A stretch of DNA of 64,000 nucleotides, taken from the NCBI RefSeq assembly GCF_021538675.1, contig NZ_JAJUKH010000009.1, positions 1 through 64,000 on the forward strand, given 5' to 3'. This document shows, piece after piece, positions 18,312-27,333 of the stretch (positions are counted from its first letter, which is position 1; every line of letters begins with the position of its first letter). The notes under the pieces are model-generated. The model saw only the letters and a program-made list of their open reading frames with translations. It did no database searches and was not told the DNA's origin. The DNA is from Paenarthrobacter sp. AR 02 (GTDB lineage: Bacteria; Actinomycetota; Actinomycetes; Actinomycetales; Micrococcaceae). A program made the position numbers and the translations under genes.

Positions 18312-18392
18312 GCTTAAAGCAACGCGGGGTCACGTACGGCCCAAAAATCCCCTCGGGATGGGCCGTAGTGACCCCGCGTTACTGCTTTAAGC
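18312..18392. terminator. Long hairpin between purL and the GGDEF-EAL gene
   Basis: The arms at 18312-18343 and 18359-18392 are complementary over about 31 bp with two small bulges, around a central AT-rich then CCCCTCGGGA loop. The distal arm includes the last codons and stop of the minus-strand gene. It probably terminates transcription from both sides. Confidence 0.75.
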
Positions 18393-19805
18393 CGGCCAGG
18401 CGTCCTGCCGGGCCAGCTGGGCCGTGAACTCAGCCTCCGGCAATGGCTTGCCGAAGTAGTAGCCTTGTCCGCTCGTGCAGCCAATACTTCGGAGCGCTTC
18501 AGCCTGCTCGGCCGTCTCGATGCCCTCCCAGACACCGTCGAGGCCGCAGGAGCGGATCACCTGCTGGATGGCAGCAAGGAAGCCGAGCTGCGTGGAATCC
18601 TTGCCCAGTTCCTTCACGAACTGACGGTCCACTTTCACGCGGTCCACGGGAAGTTTCCGGAGGTAGCCCATGGACGAATAGCCCGCGCCGAAATCGTCGA
18701 TTTCCAGTCCCACTCCCAGCCTCTGCAGGCTGGCCAAGGTGTAACGGTCCAGTTCATTGTTGTGGATGATGGCGCTCTCCGTTAGCTCAAGCACCAAGGA
18801 CTCCGGGGCCAGGGACTCCTCCGCCAAGGCCTCGCTGACGTCGTCCACGAACTCAAGGCTTTGCAGGTCTGCGGCGGAGACGTTGATCCGCATGGAAAAG
18901 TCGTGGCCCGCGGTGGCAGGATTCTGACGCCACTCGCGCAGTTGCCGCACGGCCGTCCGGAGGACCCAGCGGCCCAACTCAGCAATGAGGCCCGTGGCTT
19001 CGGCCACCGGAATGAACTGGTCCGGCATGATGAGGCCATGCACGGGATGGTTCCAACGGACCAATGCCTCGGATCCCTCGATCCGGCCCGTGGCAAGCTC
19101 CACGATCGGCTGGTAATACAGGACCAGTTGCTCCGAACGGATGGCGTCGCGGAGTTCCCCCACGATCTGGCGTTGAAGCTGCCGGGCGTGCAGTGTTCCC
19201 GGGTCGAACACCTTGAGCTTGTTCCGGCCCTCGTTTTTCGATTCCTCCATAGCCAGGTCGGCTTCCTGGAGGAGGTCCTCGGCGCTGTGGTGTGCTTCGG
19301 CGATCCGCAGGCCCATGCTCGCCCCGCACCGGACGGAGTTGTTTCCCAGGTCGATGTTTGGTTCCAGGGCGGCAAGGATGCGGTTTCCGACGGCGGTGGC
19401 CCGGCTTTGCGGGGTGGCCGGCAACAGCACGGCGAACTCGTCGCCGCCCAGGCGGGTGACGACGTCGTTATCGCGGACGGCCGACCTAATGCGCATGGCG
19501 ACCGTCACCAGGATCTGGTCCGCGGCGGCATGGCCGGCCGAGTTCTTCAGCGCCTTGAACCCGTCCAGGTTCAACAGGAGCAGCGCTGGCGGTGCGGCAC
19601 CCTGGGCCGTGGCAGCCTGGGCATCGTTGTAGGCGTTGATCAACGCCAGGCGATTGCCCACCCCGGTCAGGGCGTCGGACAGGGTGTCCCGGCGCTGTTC
19701 GTAGCGGGCCTGGTGCAACTCCTCCATGAGGTCCTGGATGTGCCGTTCCAGCCTGCCGATCCTGGGATCCAGGCCTGCTGGAGAGCCGGACGAAATGCTG
19801 GTCAC
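18387..19805 (-). CDS. GGDEF-EAL protein (diguanylate cyclase/phosphodiesterase)
   Basis: 472 aa from the GTG at 19805, chosen because GTGA overlaps the stop of the upstream gene; the frame stays open to 20063 but over that gene. A short coiled N-terminus (about 1-45) leads to a GGDEF domain with intact G-G-D-E-F and an R-D-N-D inhibitory site five residues earlier. The EAL domain follows, with S-E-A-L-V-R-W, E-I-D-D-F-G-A-G-Y and E-G-I-E-T. All key residues for synthesis and hydrolysis of c-di-GMP are present. No membrane segment. Last gene of the c-di-GMP/exopolysaccharide locus. Confidence 0.9.
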   Translation of the reverse strand: MTSISSGSPAGLDPRIGRLERHIQDLMEELHQARYEQRRDTLSDALTGVGNRLALINAYNDAQAATAQGAAPPALLLLNLDGFKALKNSAGHAAADQILVTVAMRIRSAVRDNDVVTRLGGDEFAVLLPATPQSRATAVGNRILAALEPNIDLGNNSVRCGASMGLRIAEAHHSAEDLLQEADLAMEESKNEGRNKLKVFDPGTLHARQLQRQIVGELRDAIRSEQLVLYYQPIVELATGRIEGSEALVRWNHPVHGLIMPDQFIPVAEATGLIAELGRWVLRTAVRQLREWRQNPATAGHDFSMRINVSAADLQSLEFVDDVSEALAEESLAPESLVLELTESAIIHNNELDRYTLASLQRLGVGLEIDDFGAGYSSMGYLRKLPVDRVKVDRQFVKELGKDSTQLGFLAAIQQVIRSCGLDGVWEGIETAEQAEALRSIGCTSGQGYYFGKPLPEAEFTAQLARQDAWPA

Positions 19806-20299
19806 GACTCTTCCAGGCGGCGCAACGTGGTGTCGGCAACTGCCTGTGGTTTGGAAACGGGGTTCCTGCGCTCGTCCAGGAAAAGGCGGTAGGAGGCGAT
19901 GTCCAGGCGGCCGTCCGGTTCTACCTTGTACCCTGCCCGGTAAACGTGGGTGATCCAGGACCCGCCCAGGATGGCTTCGATCCAAGCGTCGCATTCGGCC
20001 AGCGGCAGGTGAACCCGGCTGCCTGTGTTGCGGCGGTGCCCTGCGATGGACACTGTGATGCAACTGCCCTTGAGGCCTCTGTCCGTCGTGAACCGGGCGA
20101 GTCCTTCGACGTCGGCCACTATGGTCAGGTTGGCGTTTCCGTCCTCGACCGACTGGACTGGACTCATCCGCACTGACCGGCGGCCGGCGTTCAGGGACGG
20201 GATTGCCGCTCCTTGGTATGGTGCGCTGGTGATGTCCTGCCTGAAAGCGGACAACTCGTGGTTGTGCTGGATCTGGATCCTGGTGGTGAGTTCATTCAT
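19802..20299 (-). CDS. Unknown 165-aa protein in c-di-GMP operon
   Basis: 165 aa, no signal peptide or membrane segment. It lies between two c-di-GMP genes and overlaps both: ATGA with the cyclase upstream and GTGA with the GGDEF-EAL gene downstream, so the three should be co-translated. The centre (about 55-90) looks like mixed alpha/beta, and W-I-E-A-I-L-G-G-S-W-I-T-H-V-Y-R-A-G-Y is the most distinctive stretch. The R-x-x-x-R plus D-x-S-x-x-G signature of PilZ is absent, and I recognise no other family. A receptor or adaptor for the flanking enzymes is possible; function unknown. Confidence 0.7.
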   Translation of the reverse strand: MNELTTRIQIQHNHELSAFRQDITSAPYQGAAIPSLNAGRRSVRMSPVQSVEDGNANLTIVADVEGLARFTTDRGLKGSCITVSIAGHRRNTGSRVHLPLAECDAWIEAILGGSWITHVYRAGYKVEPDGRLDIASYRLFLDERRNPVSKPQAVADTTLRRLEES

Positions 20300-21474
20300 G
20301 ATCGTGCCTCATCCGCGATAACGGCCGCCTGCAGGCGGTCTGCTCCGACAATCCGGTTTCTTCCTTGTGCTTTGGCGCTGTACAGGGCCGCGTCCGCTAC
20401 CTCGATCATGAAAGTGAGGTCCGCGGCAGCGTTGGGGCTGGACGTGACGCCGTAACTGATCGTGGGGAACGTGACGCCTTCGGGAACGGCCGTGGCGGCC
20501 ATGCGGCGACTGATCTCGCCGGCGATGTTCTCGGCCCGTTCCTGGGTGGCCCCCGGGAGGAAGAGGATGAATTCCTCGCCACCGTAACGGGCTATGAGGT
20601 CGGTGGACCTGGCAGAGGCAGTGCAGGCCGCCGCGAAGGCTTTAAGGGCGACGTCCCCCGTGCCGTGTCCATACTCATCATTGACGGCTTTGAAGTGGTC
20701 GAGGTCCGCCAGGATGATCGCGACGTTGGACTCGGTGGCACGCAAGCGTTTGAGTTCGCCAGTGGCGAGGTCCAGGAAGGTTCCACGGTTCAGCAGGCCC
20801 GTCAGGTGGTCCCGGGCGGCCCGTTCCTTGAGGCCCTTGATGAGCTGGTCACTGGTCAGTGCCGTCATGCTGAAGGACACGGTGACCAGCAGGACCATGG
20901 ACACGAGCCCGGATGGTGCGGGCCCAAAGTATGTTCGGAAAGTAGCGCCGGCGGGACCTTCCATGGCGTAGACGGCCCAGCGGCCCAGATAGTAGAGGGC
21001 CAGCAGGCCAGCGGCCAGCGAGAGTGCCTTATGCGCCTGGGAGTGGGAAGACTTGATGAGCCAGAGGTCGGTGGCCGCCAGTGCGATGCCCGCTGTCATC
21101 ATGGCCAGGTAAACAAAACCCCCGGACCACACGTTGGTTGCGGGTTCTTCAAGCATGGAGGCAATGGCCGTGATTCCGGGGCCCGCCGCCAGCTGCCACG
21201 GCGCTGTTTTCAGGTCCCGCAACGACCTCGCTCCGGCCCACACACTGAATGCGCCGGCAACCACCAGGACGTTGCCCACCGGGTTGGCCCACTGCTGATG
21301 GGTGGTGCCGTTGAGGAGGAACGCCGCGTTGCCCACCATGAATTCCAGCAGGGCAATGCTCCACCAGCCTGCGTAGGGTGAGCGGGTGCGGTAGAAAGAT
21401 GCGCAGAAAAGTGCGAAGAGCGTCAGTGTGACCACACCCAAGGCCACCCGCACAGAGAATGCGTCGAGAACCAT
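20296..21474 (-). CDS. Membrane-bound diguanylate cyclase
   Basis: 392 aa. About six or seven hydrophobic segments in residues 1-195, then a GGDEF domain (about 215-380) with R-Y-G-G-E-E-F and an R-S-T-D inhibitory site exactly five residues before it. It should make c-di-GMP from two GTP at the membrane and be product-inhibited. The membrane part resembles none of the named sensor domains I know. It follows the GT2 synthase gene by 120 bp, and a pair of 11-bp repeats lies in that gap. Confidence 0.88.
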   Translation of the reverse strand: MVLDAFSVRVALGVVTLTLFALFCASFYRTRSPYAGWWSIALLEFMVGNAAFLLNGTTHQQWANPVGNVLVVAGAFSVWAGARSLRDLKTAPWQLAAGPGITAIASMLEEPATNVWSGGFVYLAMMTAGIALAATDLWLIKSSHSQAHKALSLAAGLLALYYLGRWAVYAMEGPAGATFRTYFGPAPSGLVSMVLLVTVSFSMTALTSDQLIKGLKERAARDHLTGLLNRGTFLDLATGELKRLRATESNVAIILADLDHFKAVNDEYGHGTGDVALKAFAAACTASARSTDLIARYGGEEFILFLPGATQERAENIAGEISRRMAATAVPEGVTFPTISYGVTSSPNAAADLTFMIEVADAALYSAKAQGRNRIVGADRLQAAVIADEARS

Positions 21475-21549
21475 GGCCCAACCCCCTCAGCTGGTGATGC
21501 ATCGGCCTTTGAGCCCAGTGTGATGTGGCTCGCTCAACCTCACTGCGGC

Positions 21550-21571
21550 ATTACCTCAAGATTGGCTCAAG
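21550..21571 (-). promoter_or_regulatory. 11-bp direct repeats upstream of the cyclase gene
   Basis: On the minus strand, 21571-21561 reads CTTGAGCCAAT and 21560-21550 reads CTTGAGGTAAT: two tandem 11-bp units, 76-97 bp before the cyclase start. Nearly the same arrangement occurs at 27312-27333 before the BcsB-like gene. An 11-bp period is the hallmark of sites for OmpR/PhoB-class response regulators. The regulator is not identified. Confidence 0.5.
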
Positions 21572-21594
21572 ATCCCTGGCTTCAGGGCGGCTTC

Positions 21595-23553
21595 TCACCC
21601 GGCCCAGTGGCCGTCGTCGTGGAATTCCGCTTCCAGGCCGTGAGGTGTCTTCTCCCACTTGTGGGGACTCGTCAGCATCTGCCACGCGGCCCGCCAGGCG
21701 GCCACCGAGTGCAGCACCCAGTAGAAGGGGTTCAACAACGCGAAGATGGCGATCCGCCAGCCATGGCGACGCAGCGTGGCAACCCCGGAGACGATGATCA
21801 TCATGGCGTTGCCGAACAGCATGGACACCACACCTCCCGCCAGCAGCCATTGGGGCAGTACCAATCCAACAATGTCGTAGCCGATGTACGTGACCACGGT
21901 GAACCCGACCACCAGCGGATAGGCCAGGAAAGCCAGCGGTGTGCCCAGGATCAGGCCGAGGAAGCCGATGGTGCCGGCGATCCCGGTGCTCTTGACGTAG
22001 CGCAGCGAGTTCCTTGTGTTGACGGCGGAGGTCACCATGTAGCCCTTGATCCACCGGGTGCGTTGCTTGATCCAGGCGGGAACCTGCGAGCAGGCTTCTT
22101 CCCACGTGGTGGAGTCAATGACGCCCACCCGGTACACCTCCACAGCGGCACGGAGTCCCAGGTCGGCATCCTCCGTGACGTTCCAGGGGTCCCACGCACC
22201 GACTTCCTTGAGCAAGGAGGTGACGAAGTGGTTGGAGGTCCCTCCCAACGGCAGAGGAATCCCGGAGTTGTCCAGCCCGGGAAGCATGGAGTCGAACCAG
22301 TGGGTGTATTCGATGGTGAACATGCGGGTGAGGACGTTTTGGTCTGCGTTGAAATAGTTCAAGGCTGCCTGGACACAGATGAGGGGTTTGCGGTCCGGGT
22401 TGAGGTGTTGCCGCTCGAACTCGTCCTTCTTGAACGCTGCGATGGATGCCCGCAACTGGCCCGGATCCGGACGGTCCTCGGCGTCGTAGATCACCACGTA
22501 CTCCCCCCGGGCGAAAGTCAGCCCGTAGTTGCAGGCACGGGGCTTGGTTTGCGGCTCGCCCTTGGGCACGATCAGGATGCGCACGTACTCCGGCGGCCTG
22601 GAAGCTTTCGCGGCGGCGATGGTCTCGGCGTCGTCCTCTTCCAGGAGCACAAGGACGTCAAGCTTGGAGCGAGGGTAGTCCAGTTGCCCAAGGTTGACCA
22701 GAAGTTTGTCAATGATGTTGGCCTCGCGGAACACCGGAACCAGGATGGTGTAGATGGGCAGGTCTGCATCAGGAACCCGCTCTTCCGCCAGGGGTGGGAG
22801 TCCACGGCTGGCCCGTTCCCTGTTCCTGGCGTTGGCCACTGCGGCCTCATGCAGGCTGTCGAAGGGCCGGCGGAGGCTCGCCAGGGACTTGAAGGCGATG
22901 CTGACCAGGAACACGATGTTGGCCGCTGCCAGCAGCACGACGACGGCGGTCAGCGGGGACACCACGAACGCCGCCACGATGCCTGCCACGAGGACAACCG
23001 GGAGGAGTCGCTGCCACCGCGTCAGGGCCGTGCGCGCAGATTCCCCCGGGCGTTCTTCGGCCAAGCGTTCGGCCGATTCATAGAGAAGGTGCCGACGGAA
23101 CGATCGCTGGATGGATTGGTTGATGTCCCAGTCGGTGGTGGTGCGGAACTCGACAGCGGCGGCCCCGAACGTCAAGGCTGCTTCGTGCGCAATGGCGTCC
23201 GTGGGTGCCACTGCGGTGGCTATGGTGAGGACATCCCCTTCCATCCGCCACGGCAACCAGAAGGGTTCCCCAAGCTCGCTGTAACCGAGCATCTCCATAA
23301 GTGCGTCATCCGCCGGTTCAGCCACCAGGTCAACCAAGGGGGCCTGCCACTGCTGGGCCAGCACTTCATAAATCCGACGGCGGTCCAGCCCCGCTTCCAG
23401 GATCAGGTGCCGGCCGAGCAGCCCGCCTTCAGCTGCGGCCCGGTCAAGTGCCCGCTGGAGTTGCTCGGGGGTCACGAGCCCTGCTTCGAGCAGTGTCTGG
23501 CCGATTGACTTCCGGTTCAGCCGCTGCTCCGCAACGTGGGATGGAGGTGTCAT
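21595..23553 (-). CDS. Processive GT2 synthase with N-terminal MshEN-like domain
   Basis: 652 aa. Residues about 10-75 resemble the GSPII_E N-terminal (MshEN) fold: I-G-Q-T-L-L-E-A-G-L-V, then L-Q-R-A-L, then L-L-G-R-H-L-I. MshEN domains are known c-di-GMP receptors, and NfrB-type glycosyltransferases carry one. Two membrane helices precede a GT2 domain with Y-D-A-E-D, T-E-D-A-D and Q-R-T-R-W, the set found in BcsA and other processive synthases; about four more helices follow. No PilZ domain. It likely polymerises and exports a polysaccharide. Its ATG overlaps the GT-C gene stop (TGATG). Confidence 0.85.
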   Translation of the reverse strand: MTPPSHVAEQRLNRKSIGQTLLEAGLVTPEQLQRALDRAAAEGGLLGRHLILEAGLDRRRIYEVLAQQWQAPLVDLVAEPADDALMEMLGYSELGEPFWLPWRMEGDVLTIATAVAPTDAIAHEAALTFGAAAVEFRTTTDWDINQSIQRSFRRHLLYESAERLAEERPGESARTALTRWQRLLPVVLVAGIVAAFVVSPLTAVVVLLAAANIVFLVSIAFKSLASLRRPFDSLHEAAVANARNRERASRGLPPLAEERVPDADLPIYTILVPVFREANIIDKLLVNLGQLDYPRSKLDVLVLLEEDDAETIAAAKASRPPEYVRILIVPKGEPQTKPRACNYGLTFARGEYVVIYDAEDRPDPGQLRASIAAFKKDEFERQHLNPDRKPLICVQAALNYFNADQNVLTRMFTIEYTHWFDSMLPGLDNSGIPLPLGGTSNHFVTSLLKEVGAWDPWNVTEDADLGLRAAVEVYRVGVIDSTTWEEACSQVPAWIKQRTRWIKGYMVTSAVNTRNSLRYVKSTGIAGTIGFLGLILGTPLAFLAYPLVVGFTVVTYIGYDIVGLVLPQWLLAGGVVSMLFGNAMMIIVSGVATLRRHGWRIAIFALLNPFYWVLHSVAAWRAAWQMLTSPHKWEKTPHGLEAEFHDDGHWAG

Positions 23554-25241
23554 CAGTGTGAGGACCTTTCATAGATCCGGTGTGTTGGCGTGGAGAAAGC
23601 GACTGAGTAACGCACGGTGAATCCGGGGTCCTTCACCATGGCCTGGTACACCAAGTCGGTGGGGCCGGAATCGCGGGCACCTGAGCCTGCCTCCACATTA
23701 ACGAAGACCCACTTGGCGTACTTCGCCGGATCCTCCAGGGCGGGGGCAAAGTAGTCGCCGGACGCGCGGTTGTAGATTTCCTTGAGGGGAATTCCCATGA
23801 CGGGAAGGATCGCATTGCCGCGGGCGCTTTCATCCATGAGGATTCCTCCGGACTCATAATGGGCGTTGAGCCAGCGCGCTGCAGCGGTTGAATTGGTGGT
23901 GGATTCCGCGGACATCCGGCCTTCTGCCAGAACGGCCAGGCGAGCAGTCGGGTCCTCATTCCACCACAGGTTCTGCCCCACCAGTCCTGCCAGCAAAGCA
24001 CCGACCACCCAGGGCCTGAACCGCCGGGCCCGCGTGATGTCCTGGACGAACACAGCCACCAGGATCGCCACCAGCGGCAAGGCCGTCAGTGCGAATCTGT
24101 TGTTCCACCACGTGGACGGCAACGAATGGTCGTTGTTGATCGCGGTTTGGCCCAGGAACAGGCTCAACAACGCAAAGGCGTAAGCACTGCCGGTCACCGC
24201 CACCAGCAAGGTACTGTTCGCGAATCCCCGCCTGAAGACAAGCACGACGGCGCCGCACGCTGCCATCGCGAGGACCAGGACGCCGGCTGTCTCCAGCAGC
24301 GACCAATGGAAAGTAGTCAGCGTCAGTCCCAGGTTGCCCTTGGTAGGCAACAGGCCGCCGTCGGTGATGTTCTTCTGCTGGGCGTAGGCGGAGTACTGCC
24401 CGAACATGAACTCCAGCGGGTTGCCGTAGATGGCCCAGTTGTAGGACACCCACCACAGCACGGCGGCTGCGGGAATCATCACGTAACCACCGGCCATGAT
24501 GAGTGCCTCGCGCCAGGCGCCAGTGCGGCGTTTGGCGACTATGAGCACGAACACGGTCCCCGTCATGACCAGCGCCCAGCCTTCGTACCTCGAGAGCACG
24601 GCGGCCGCCGACGGGATGCCGGCGAAGACAGCGAGTTCACCGGCGCTCATGCGGCGACGGCTGGTTGCCCAATGCGCCAGGCCTGCCATGCCGCCCACGA
24701 TGCACATGATCAGCACGGGCTCGGTGAGGGCCGTGGTGTAGACGTACAGGACCGCGGGGTTGGCCAGGACAACCAGAGTGGTGGCCAGTCGGCCGGCCCG
24801 CCCCAACCCCAGCCGGGCTGCAATCAGGTACAGGCCCGTGGTGGTGGCTGACAAGGCCAGGATTCCCAAGAGCCCGGCCGCCCACCCCGTGCTGAACAAC
24901 CACATGTTCACCACGAATGGTGCCAGCAGCAGGTGGGGCATGGGCAACCAGACCGTTCCCAACTGCTCGAAGCCCGGAGCCTTGCTGTCGAAAATCCGGC
25001 GTGCGATGGTCAGATGGCTCTGGGCGTCCGAATAGTCCAGGTTGGTGCCGTGCCCGATCGTGTACAGGCAGGCGAGGTAACCGACCACGGCCGACAGGAG
25101 TGCGACGATCCTGGTCCCCGGAACCTTGCGGCCGGCAACCGGGGCGTCGAGCCGTTCCCATGCCCGGGCGAGCAAAGCCAGGGCTCCAGGCACTGCCTCC
25201 TTCCGGTGGCCGGCACGACGCGTGGCGAGGCTAGTTGCCAT
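23553..25241 (-). CDS. GT-C family membrane glycosyltransferase (GT39/ArnT-like)
   Basis: 562 aa with about 10-12 hydrophobic segments. The first periplasmic loop has N-L-D-Y-S-D-A-Q-S-H-L-T-I-A-R, the acidic motif typical of GT-C enzymes that use polyprenyl-phosphate sugars. The C-terminal about 150 residues are soluble and probably extracytoplasmic. It may add a sugar to the polymer or to an anchor. It overlaps the BcsB-like gene by 11 nt and the GT2 gene by one, so the three are tightly coupled. Donor and acceptor unknown. Confidence 0.78.
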   Translation of the reverse strand: MATSLATRRAGHRKEAVPGALALLARAWERLDAPVAGRKVPGTRIVALLSAVVGYLACLYTIGHGTNLDYSDAQSHLTIARRIFDSKAPGFEQLGTVWLPMPHLLLAPFVVNMWLFSTGWAAGLLGILALSATTTGLYLIAARLGLGRAGRLATTLVVLANPAVLYVYTTALTEPVLIMCIVGGMAGLAHWATSRRRMSAGELAVFAGIPSAAAVLSRYEGWALVMTGTVFVLIVAKRRTGAWREALIMAGGYVMIPAAAVLWWVSYNWAIYGNPLEFMFGQYSAYAQQKNITDGGLLPTKGNLGLTLTTFHWSLLETAGVLVLAMAACGAVVLVFRRGFANSTLLVAVTGSAYAFALLSLFLGQTAINNDHSLPSTWWNNRFALTALPLVAILVAVFVQDITRARRFRPWVVGALLAGLVGQNLWWNEDPTARLAVLAEGRMSAESTTNSTAAARWLNAHYESGGILMDESARGNAILPVMGIPLKEIYNRASGDYFAPALEDPAKYAKWVFVNVEAGSGARDSGPTDLVYQAMVKDPGFTVRYSVAFSTPTHRIYERSSH

Positions 25242-27216
25242 GGCCCGGTTCGGAAGATTTCAGCTCAGCATCCACGTAGGCCTGCGCTTCCTTGGCACGC
25301 CTCCTGGCCAGCAGGGTGCGCAGCGCAAACGCGAGCCCGAGGACCAGCACGGCTCCGCCGATCCACCAGGCGTACGGACGGTAGTCATCGGTGACAGCCT
25401 TCTGCGGAACAACGACGTTGCTCTCCAACAACACCGGCGTACCGGACGGTTGCGTCACCAGGAGGTTGCGGGACAGGGAACCCCAGCCGCCTTCAACCCC
25501 GCCCACATGCGCGGCCAGCGATCCTTGGAGCGCAGCAGCTGCCGCGGCGTCGCCTTCGGGGGCCCACGCACCCAGCAACAGCAGGTTGCGCCCGCCCTGC
25601 TCAAAAGCTTCCAGCACGCCATAGGGGGCGGAGACGCCCACGCCATATTCGACGTCGTCAGGTGAGATCGTGCGGAACTCCGCCAAACGCAGGGGTGCTG
25701 AGAGCTTGTTGGCCACCTCTGCCGTGGCACCCACCACCAGCCCGGATTCACTCGATCCGGCCAGTGAATCGATGCCCACCACCCGGGTGTCCAGCAGCGA
25801 GGCACTGTCCCGCTGGAGGGCAGCGATCAGGGTGGCGGCGTTGAGGGTGTTCGCCTGGGCGTTCCCGTCGCCGAAAGCTACCGGAACGCTCTGGCCCAAA
25901 ACCTGCGGGAAACGCGCGAAACCGGCCTGGGTGGAGTCACCGCGGACAGCCGTCACGGTGCTGCCCGCCGTATCCAGCGTGACTTCCATGGGCATGACGC
26001 CTGCCGGTCCGGAACAATCGCCGCCGGCGGGGAGGGCAGCCAGCCGGATCCGCAAGCCGTTCTTCGCCTGGAGCTGGCCGGCTGGAACCTCAGCGTCCAC
26101 ACTGAAGGTGTCGCCGCCGTCGAGGTTCCTGGAACTGAGCAGGTAGTCGTTCCAGAAAACTGAAAGCTGCGCCTGGGCGTTATTTGGCACGGCCGTGTGG
26201 GTTCCCTTGAGCTGGACCTTCACCGAGGAAACAGGTCCGCCGAACTGTGATTGCGAGATACCAACATAGGATTCCGGGGTGCCATAGCCCGAGAGCTTGA
26301 GCGTGGTGCTCCCGAGGTCCTTGATGGTCTGGGTCAGGCCCTGCGCGGCGGGCAGCGCCGAGGTCAGGCCGGTGACCGACGGTGTCACTGCGAGCGCGGT
26401 CTTGTCGCTGGCCAGGGCCCTGGCCGCGGTACGGAGCTGTTCCTCGTGGCCGCTAAGGACCAGCTGCGGCAGTCCCGCGGTGGTGGTGAGCTTGGTGGCA
26501 ACCTCGCCCTGGTCGGCGACGACGCTGAGGATTCGGCTGCCGGCGGGCAGGTTCGCCACGCGCGCCGCCAGCTCACCTTCCGGAACCACAGTGACTGCGG
26601 CGTCCGGATAACGGTGCGACATCGCTGCCGAGGCAGTCATGATGGCCGCCGACACATCGGAGCCAGGATCCGCCGGGACGGGAAGAACGACGGCGGGCAC
26701 GGACGCCGGGAAGAACTCACCCACTGTGGTGGGTGCTTTGGCGGTCCCGCTGAAGTCCACCACCGTGTTGTTCAGGGTTGCCGTGGCGTTGGAGAGCACG
26801 CACATGGTCTGGGTTGCGGGAACGATTTGAAGGCCCACGGTCAACTGCTGGTCCAGCACGTCGGAATTGCTGACAGCGGCATCGAGGGCAATGTTGGCAG
26901 CAGCGGCAGTCTCCAGCACAACACGGCCGTTAACCGTTGCCCGGACTGTGCCCTCCAGCTTCCCGGACACCACGATTGTTCCCTTGACCCGTGTGGGCTC
27001 CAGGCCCGAAGCCACCGGAACCACCAGGACCTGCTCCGACTGCCCTGCGAGGGCAGAAACGCTGGACGATGCCTTCAGGGTTGATCCCTGGGAGGGTGCA
27101 GCGACTGCCGCCGGAATGGTGGCCGCAGACAGGGCCAAAGCGGCAGCGAAGGCGAGCGTCACCGCCGCGGCACGGTAACGGGTATGGGGTCTGGTTCGGG
27201 CAGGGGCTAAGGGCAC
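25231..27216 (-). CDS. BcsB-like secreted/membrane-anchored subunit
   Basis: 661 aa from a GTG start with AGGA upstream. Signal peptide ending near V-A-A-P, then about 550 residues of beta-rich extracellular sequence, then one C-terminal membrane helix (about 620-640: W-W-I-G-G-A-V-L-V-L-G-L-A-F-A-L) and a basic cytoplasmic tail. This architecture and its place before a processive GT2 gene match BcsB, the subunit that guides cellulose through the periplasm. Homology is judged by architecture and general similarity, so the assignment is moderate. First gene of the locus, with a promoter-type repeat 100 bp upstream. Confidence 0.72.
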   Translation of the reverse strand: MPLAPARTRPHTRYRAAAVTLAFAAALALSAATIPAAVAAPSQGSTLKASSSVSALAGQSEQVLVVPVASGLEPTRVKGTIVVSGKLEGTVRATVNGRVVLETAAAANIALDAAVSNSDVLDQQLTVGLQIVPATQTMCVLSNATATLNNTVVDFSGTAKAPTTVGEFFPASVPAVVLPVPADPGSDVSAAIMTASAAMSHRYPDAAVTVVPEGELAARVANLPAGSRILSVVADQGEVATKLTTTAGLPQLVLSGHEEQLRTAARALASDKTALAVTPSVTGLTSALPAAQGLTQTIKDLGSTTLKLSGYGTPESYVGISQSQFGGPVSSVKVQLKGTHTAVPNNAQAQLSVFWNDYLLSSRNLDGGDTFSVDAEVPAGQLQAKNGLRIRLAALPAGGDCSGPAGVMPMEVTLDTAGSTVTAVRGDSTQAGFARFPQVLGQSVPVAFGDGNAQANTLNAATLIAALQRDSASLLDTRVVGIDSLAGSSESGLVVGATAEVANKLSAPLRLAEFRTISPDDVEYGVGVSAPYGVLEAFEQGGRNLLLLGAWAPEGDAAAAAALQGSLAAHVGGVEGGWGSLSRNLLVTQPSGTPVLLESNVVVPQKAVTDDYRPYAWWIGGAVLVLGLAFALRTLLARRRAKEAQAYVDAELKSSEPGHGN

Positions 27217-27311
27217 GATGTCAGTCCTGGTAACTAGCAGCGAATGAGTCCGTCAGCCTCTTGGGCCAACCTCATAGACACTGCCAAGTCCAACTCAAGG
27301 TGCCTTGCTGC

Positions 27312-27333
27312 GTTTCCTCAAGATTCCATCAAG
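27312..27333 (-). promoter_or_regulatory. 11-bp direct repeats upstream of the BcsB-like gene
   Basis: On the minus strand, 27333-27323 reads CTTGATGGAAT and 27322-27312 reads CTTGAGGAAAC. This matches the pair at 21550-21571, with 15 of 18 core bases identical. It lies 96-117 bp upstream of the BcsB-like GTG. A third CTTGAG is found at 27298-27293. Likely a shared activator site for the locus. Confidence 0.5.

Follow-up and report, generated by a model that had tools for sequence, protein, structure and literature searches.

We consider it slightly better than an even bet that six genes on the minus strand of a 64-kb stretch of the soil actinobacterium Paenarthrobacter sp. AR 02 (contig NZ_JAJUKH010000009.1; genome 4.42 Mb), the window of this analysis, encode a synthase-dependent exopolysaccharide machine joined to a cyclic di-GMP (c-di-GMP) module, with the synthase switched by c-di-GMP through an MshEN domain and the whole placed under one operator-binding regulator. 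This reading is built on genes, folds, motifs, operator sites and the separate occurrence of two gene sets, all of which we observe. The genes form two halves, a synthase triad (the first three lines below) and a signalling trio (the last three).

25231..27216, minus strand: BcsB-like secreted, membrane-anchored subunit (gene called bcsB here), 661 aa, GTG start
23553..25241, minus strand: GT-C fold glycosyltransferase, 562 aa
21595..23553, minus strand: processive-type family 2 glycosyltransferase (GT2) synthase with an N-terminal MshEN domain (about residues 14-155), 652 aa
20296..21474, minus strand: membrane diguanylate cyclase, 392 aa, with an RSTD I-site and GGEEF
19802..20299, minus strand: 165-aa protein without a family match and with no transmembrane-like stretch
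18387..19805, minus strand: GGDEF-EAL protein, 472 aa, GTG start, 4-nt overlap with the gene of the 165-aa protein

These six open reading frames (ORFs), all confirmed within 18387-27216 in the ORF list, are the ones named in a preliminary description of this DNA, which had also claimed tight coupling inside each half and intact catalytic motifs. Both points hold. The bcsB and GT-C genes overlap by 11 nt and the GT-C and GT2 genes by 1 nt, the cyclase and 165-aa genes overlap by 4 nt, as do the 165-aa and GGDEF-EAL genes, and a 120-bp gap between the GT2 and cyclase genes separates the halves. The GT2 keeps DxD, TED and QxxRW, the cyclase GGEEF, and the GGDEF-EAL protein both its GGDEF and its EAL motifs. 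A 558-aa version of the GGDEF-EAL ORF, reaching 20063, was rejected as over-long, and the start was placed at the GTG at 19805 because in relatives the first in-frame start gives the 4-nt overlap with the 165-aa gene. This is so in nine of the 12 relatives with the whole gene (L020, L021, L034-L036, L039, L040, L047 and L052; L038, L048 and L051 differ).

The synthase itself matches PF13641 and PF13632 above the Pfam cut-offs, and its DxD, TED and QxxRW motifs are invariant across 19 aligned sequences. Its N-terminus had been proposed to be an MshEN domain standing in place of PilZ, and profile searches bear this out: PF05157 scores 33.7 bits (cut-off 23.1), the NCBIfam c-di-GMP motif model NF053729 scores 42 bits (cut-off 38), and PilZ has no match on the GT2 protein or in the whole genome, where MshEN has one match and GGDEF five, two of these in the cluster. 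The N-terminus also matches Vibrio cholerae MshE (5htl) at E 4.5e-7, and its strongest match is the Thermus PilF chain, best by the first, non-binding GSPII-A domain. Searched against the Protein Data Bank (PDB), a 19-row GT2 profile returned PilF first (E 9.4e-34), BcsA at E 3.5e-16, and also hyaluronan synthase. Two synthase models stay far below their cut-offs on the GT2, namely CelA/BcsA (TIGR03030, 26.5 against 699.1 bits) and the NfrB equivalog (NF008411, 24.7 against 1170 bits). In a Chloroflexi metagenome-assembled genome (MAG), the GT2 (L058 47-4015, a 1322-aa ORF) has some five MshEN-like repeats in tandem, of which the last is near-canonical.

Going by its residues, c-di-GMP binding by the window MshEN is moderately likely, the sequence leaving the matter undecided. 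Numbered on V. cholerae MshE (VcMshE), motif I has R9S, L10I and Q32A and keeps G11, L25 and L29; motif II has R38L and L54I and keeps L39, G40, L58 and Q61; and the G47 position is Ala, with a Gly one residue on. The 14 contact positions are less variable than the rest of residues 9-61 (0.51 against 1.11 bits, permutation 0.009, in 21 Micrococcaceae sequences weighted in four groups), a difference that fold constraints may partly explain. In VcMshE, G11L and G40I abolish ligand stabilisation, and changes of R9 and Q32 cost at most about fivefold (PMC5013675; here and below, statements from cited papers refer to the excerpts drawn on). In the GSPII-B domain of Thermus PilF, Lys and Leu replace two arginines, the dissociation constant (KD) is 6 nM with no arginine contacts, and its authors widen the consensus to (R/K/L)LG (PMC11731258). 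The LLG that begins motif II in the window fits this extended consensus and is the same as in GSPII-B. Since GSPII-B binds at 6 nM without arginine contacts, we rejected the lost motif arginines alone as a disproof of binding. NfrB of Escherichia coli, for which binding is proven, carries Pro and Asn at positions 9 and 32, respectively, and keeps Arg38.

For the other two members of the triad, PDB profile searches gave no relative (L041 being left out of the BcsB-like alignment), so predicted folds were used. The BcsB identity proposed earlier has the backing of PF03170, marginally (23.5 bits, cut-off 21), and of an AlphaFold model with a predicted local distance difference test score (pLDDT) of 73.1 and a predicted template-modelling score (pTM) of 0.57: its first 22 Foldseek matches are BcsB chains, the best being E. 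coli BcsB at E 1.7e-25 with template-modelling (TM) scores of 0.58/0.59. The protein has hydrophobic helices at its N- and C-terminus. Its gene diverges fast (34-35% identity in Glutamicibacter) and has a match in 20 of the 76 named loci, 19 of them among L034-L053; because of this divergence, its absence by BLAST elsewhere counts for little.

The 562-aa protein has no Pfam or NCBIfam family over cut-off. Its model (pLDDT 84.8) yields 21 Foldseek matches at E<=0.001, with TM scores of 0.37-0.54 by query length, including DPY19, oligosaccharyltransferase (OST), ALG12, Pmt4, AftA, PglB, ArnT and EmbA. We take every one of the 21 to be either a GT-C enzyme or an OST complex, the catalytic subunit of OST being of the GT-C class; the best fold matches of the model agree with the predicted GT-C identity. 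OST, PglB, AftA and ArnT use lipid-linked donors. D72, conserved to at least 90% in a 16-row alignment and presumably in the first outer loop, is our candidate for a catalytic acidic residue. The suggestion that a GT-C partner in such a set is unusual did not survive. A GT-C homologue adjoins the GT2 in at least 28 of the 76 named loci (24 by script, plus L043, L044, L045 and L053, where over-long ORFs hid it), a lower bound, as the BLAST threshold misses distant GT-C genes. The close relatives L034-L053 account for 20 of these, and the 56 other loci for eight: L054 (Propionibacterium), L056 and L057 (actinomycete MAGs), L058 (Chloroflexi MAG), L059 (Cellulomonas MAG), L065 and L105 (Patescibacteria) and L091 (Sinomonas).

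In the trio, the cyclase has a GGDEF domain of 136.5 bits, an intact RxxD-x5-GGEEF and two transmembrane-like stretches. The GGDEF-EAL protein, scanned on the longer ORF, scores 247.6 bits for EAL and 119.2 bits for GGDEF, with RxxD-x5-GGDEF, EALVR, DDFGAG and EGIE intact, and both local GGDEF proteins retain active-site and I-site motifs. The 165-aa protein has no Pfam or NCBIfam match, is not recognised by the DUF7793 model, lacks a transmembrane-like stretch by hydropathy, and averages 91% identity per column over an alignment of 13 rows, one of them from the window. Around distant homologues of this protein, six stretches of 20 kb (L121-L126) were compared with the local GGDEF proteins, and none had a match at E 1e-6.

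The two halves have in common a three-box operator of the form CTTGA-N6-CTTGA-N17..19-TTGA, which stands before the first gene of each.

27295..27333, minus strand: three-box operator before bcsB
21534..21571, minus strand: three-box operator before the cyclase gene

The second lies in the 120-bp gap. The sequence upstream of the cyclase is conserved there, includes direct repeats spaced 11 bp apart, and is retained by several triad-less relatives. At up to three mismatches, the cyclase-upstream pattern has two matches in the window, where 0.03 are expected, the second being 101 bp before bcsB. The strict three-box form occurs five times in the genome (its reversed-pattern control, 0) and not once in the 943,852 bases of L054-L109. 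Among 15 measured relatives with both triad and trio, 13 have both sites in strict form and two have one only (L193, L195), each site being strict in 14; relative to the gene starts, the operator lies at -118 to -121 for bcsB and at -88 to -97 for the cyclase, and these stretches hold no further strict match. In the Pseudarthrobacter group (L041-L046 are three named Pseudarthrobacter and three Arthrobacter sp.), a strict site precedes bcsB without an adjacent cyclase in L041, L042, L044, L045, L046 and L199, at 35-62 bp before the bcsB ORF start used, and L043 has one mismatch (two-box scan). Second strict copies occur elsewhere in L041 (1301), L042 (13900) and L199 (2509). Glutamicibacter and Tersicoccus (L049, L050, L053) do not have the operator upstream of bcsB. 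At loci without the triad, a strict site precedes the cyclase in seven of 12, and not in L182, L185, L188, L189 or L191.

Around the other three genome sites, genes were called by GC3 (G+C content at third codon positions). One site (C22:229185-229222) stands some 50 bp ahead of an Hpt-like gene, whose protein scores 21.6 bits, below the Pfam cut-off of 24.6. This gene has as neighbours a HisKA kinase gene and, between the two, the gene of an OmpR-type response regulator (L213 2682-4352, 4452-5195, 5223-5636), and we regard the OmpR-type protein as a candidate reader of the operator. Another (C11:612697-612734; L214 2304-2804) is 106 bp before a gene for a 166-aa HATPase_c protein, followed by a penicillin-binding protein gene, and the fifth is about 440 bp before a DUF1206 gene.

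The preliminary description had taken the six genes as one set, and a survey of 198 genomes of the genus contradicts this. The GT2 is matched in 31 genomes, of which 21 carry a close orthologue of the 165-aa gene as well (in 20 the two lie near each other on one contig, in G241 on separate contigs), eight have none, one (G322) has a broken triad and one (G315) a distant paralogue. The 165-aa orthologue occurs in 33 genomes (34 matches less a weak one in G359), and at all 12 loci among these without the triad the cyclase, 165-aa and GGDEF-EAL genes adjoin purL by BLAST. With the trio lacking the triad in 12 of 33 genomes and the triad lacking the trio in eight, a single conserved operon was rejected. 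In the wider family, the GT2 has a match in 17 of 197 genomes, near full length in eight. A tree built from 30 loci, 28 of them different (18 have the triad and 12 lack it; quick method, midpoint root), needs three changes of the triad label, all three forced by starred branches. In L120 the triad was lost, since a 3' remnant of the GT2 gene remains. The plainest history is that the triad was gained beside an older trio and then lost in places, the trio probably being a separate gene set older than the triad; alternatively, several losses of an ancestral triad may explain the pattern. After a deletion in the triad of G322 (L192 7568-9501), only a portion of bcsB and the 3' half of the GT2 gene remain.

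The triad interval is an insertion-prone site. Inserts in two relatives (L181 10600-17145 and L188 783-7997) hold an apparent hydroxylase, MFS, nitrilase and GntR catabolic cassette. We had entertained another polysaccharide set as the replacing cargo and dropped the idea, as both look like cassettes of an aromatic hydroxylase, MFS, nitrilase and GntR; the reading covers these two inserts, judged from their ORFs alone, and L185, L187, L189, L190 and L191 carry inserts as well.

In two other lineages, GGDEF genes again stand beside the triad. In Tersicoccus (G069, L053) both GGDEF genes of the genome are close to the GT2 gene, at 1.6 and 3.7 kb, and in Glutamicibacter soli (G051, L049) one of three is divergent from bcsB, with its start about 270 bp away. 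Compared with the proteins of the window genome, these flanking proteins find their better matches in paralogues other than the window pair (379 vs 286, 228 vs 201 and 303 vs 230 bits), which suggests that GGDEF genes were recruited separately beside the triad in different lineages. Small DUF7793-type genes adjoin the GGDEF-EAL genes in Tersicoccus (L053 14303-14725; 64.6 bits, cut-off 26) and in Glutamicibacter soli (L049 4122-4511; 22.3 bits, below the cut-off).

As to surroundings, an ABM-like gene and a sugar ABC transporter lie upstream of the cluster, and purL and purQ lie downstream on the opposite strand, all named by ORF reading and used as synteny markers. Between 18000 and 28600 no Rfam family reaches its gathering score, and sigma-70-like and terminator-like sites do not rise above shuffled sequence counts.

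On the reading we prefer, the GT2 would polymerise a glycan in the cytoplasm and extrude the chain, the BcsB-like protein would guide it outside, and the GT-C enzyme would decorate it on the outer face, probably from a polyprenyl-phosphate sugar. Binding of c-di-GMP to the N-terminal MshEN would turn the GT2 on, the adjacent membrane cyclase supplying the dinucleotide and the GGDEF-EAL protein removing it. One regulator acting at the three-box operator, for which the OmpR-type response regulator is the candidate, would activate both transcription units. Polymerisation, export, decoration, binding, activation, the order of assembly and the choice of regulator are what we infer. The shared operator and the recurring GGDEF neighbours favour control of the synthase by its own neighbours. 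A more specific version, which we offer tentatively and think rather doubtful as a whole, is that an arginine-free N-terminal MshEN gates a GT2-BcsB pump, that the GT-C enzyme decorates the emerging chain within the same complex, that the triad joined a c-di-GMP module that was already in place and has the same operator, and that one phosphorelay sets both machine and messenger.

Several findings weigh against the preferred reading, and with them comes a rival in which the triad is a glycan synthase whose MshEN is non-binding and structural only, the cyclase trio being an unrelated neighbour. In the pocket both motif arginines and one of the two glutamines are substituted, motif I lacking R9 and Q32 and R38 being Leu. 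In GSPII-B, Q190E (Q190 I take to be the motif-I Gln) has a KD of about 500 nM, and a double Gln change abolishes binding (PMC11731258). PilF GSPII-A does not bind, and by its authors' reckoning measurable binding required Arg at the start of motif II together with Gln at both motif ends; Ser for the motif-II Arg removed binding of a GSPII-A construct that also kept Ala at the Gly position (PMC12002112). The window motif II starts with Leu, neither Arg nor Ser, and the motif-I Gln required in the GSPII-A work is gone. Against the rival, the key glycines and leucines are kept, and motif II is like that of the arginine-free high-affinity binder.

The neighbourhood also speaks on both sides. Trio and triad are separable in genomes of the genus, and other cargo occupies the triad interval in relatives. 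A GGDEF or EAL match lies in the stretch at 19 of the 76 named loci, 13 of them among L034-L053; because six of the 56 more distant GT2 loci also have one, a background of about one in nine, such neighbours are not very rare. The identity margins of the paralogue comparison are modest (41.6 vs 37.7, 38.2 vs 35.9 and 35.1 vs 33.9%). In Glutamicibacter, the nearest GGDEF gene is 11.1 kb away in G142 and none of four is close in G231, and the examined flanks of L041-L046 hold no GGDEF match (L045 begins near a contig end). As for the operator, the pattern that finds five sites had been fitted to the two local ones, and at the Hpt-like gene it is opposite in orientation to the gene, unlike at bcsB and the cyclase. 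The recurrence of GGDEF genes beside the triad in two other lineages and the common operator of the two units nevertheless argue against a merely structural MshEN beside an unrelated trio, and we judge this rival unlikely.

Distinctly improbable is a second rival, in which the GT2 makes or elongates a lipid-linked glycan, the GT-C enzyme transfers it to a wall polymer or protein, and the BcsB-like protein is a scaffold: GT2/GT-C pairs without detectable bcsB or MshEN exist (for example in Sinomonas, L091, where a small PF00535 GT2 precedes the GT-C gene) and the top GT-C fold matches include OST, PglB, AftA and ArnT, but TED and QxxRW are invariant in the 19 aligned GT2 rows, BcsA and hyaluronan synthase are among the GT2 profile matches, BcsB partners go together with polymer export (PMC4125290), and the fast divergence of bcsB makes its absence elsewhere weak.

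If the preferred reading is true, the synthase is a likely c-di-GMP output in an actinobacterium with five GGDEF matches, one MshEN and no PilZ match (the search did not extend to BldD-type or other receptors). It would extend MshEN-gated synthesis to Gram-positives, and would let arginine-free c-di-GMP recognition be tested in a synthase. It would also illustrate how local control by the messenger is acquired by a synthase, the triad having what appear to be different cyclase and GGDEF-EAL genes next to it from one lineage to another, and the common operator offers a simple genetic handle.

Among the papers listed in searches of open-licence PMC literature, we recognised by title or start of abstract no description of an actinobacterial set of MshEN-GT2, BcsB and GT-C, and the main text of a survey of five synthase-dependent exopolysaccharide operon systems, in the excerpt drawn on, does not mention Arthrobacter (PMC7112194). 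Two elements are not new. The MshEN-governed synthase of the preliminary description stands as a domain arrangement, with MshEN and GT2 on one chain; as a kind it was already published in 2021 for E. coli NfrB (PMC8669469, PMC8669472), and a BcsB protein in a Gram-positive c-di-GMP system is known from Listeria Pss (PMC4125290).

Like NfrB, which works with NfrA and DgcJ, the window GT2 has TED and QxxRW and an MshEN on one chain, and in both a diguanylate cyclase is proposed as the local c-di-GMP source. The two MshEN domains share 29% identity over 120 residues by BLAST, and the glycosyltransferase parts are barely alignable (22%, E 3e-5). Unlike in NfrB, where MshEN is C-terminal, it is N-terminal here, and the partners are BcsB-like and GT-C proteins; NfrA is an outer-membrane protein, and none is among the six genes (the rest of the genome was not searched). 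A BcsB homologue is clustered with nfrB in A. xylosoxidans (PMC8669472). With the BcsA-BcsB cellulose synthase the window system shares the GT2 profile match and the BcsB fold, and it differs in the missing PilZ, the score far below the CelA/BcsA cut-off and the GT-C partner. Listeria Pss is a c-di-GMP-dependent synthase with a BcsB orthologue, PssD, in which the receptor is PssE, a degenerate GGDEF protein (PMC4125290), whereas here MshEN on the GT2 is proposed; both local GGDEF domains keep GG[DE]EF, and a degenerate receptor of the Pss type is not among the two. Compared with PilF GSPII-B, motif II is alike in LLG, with Leu for Arg, and in the kept Gly, hydrophobics and Gln, whereas GSPII-B has Lys first in motif I and keeps the motif-I Gln where the window has Ser and Ala, and the host proteins differ. 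Overall, the mechanism is plausible, and its best reading is a synthase of the Bcs/Pss kind that would be controlled as NfrB is and has a GT-C enzyme as partner.

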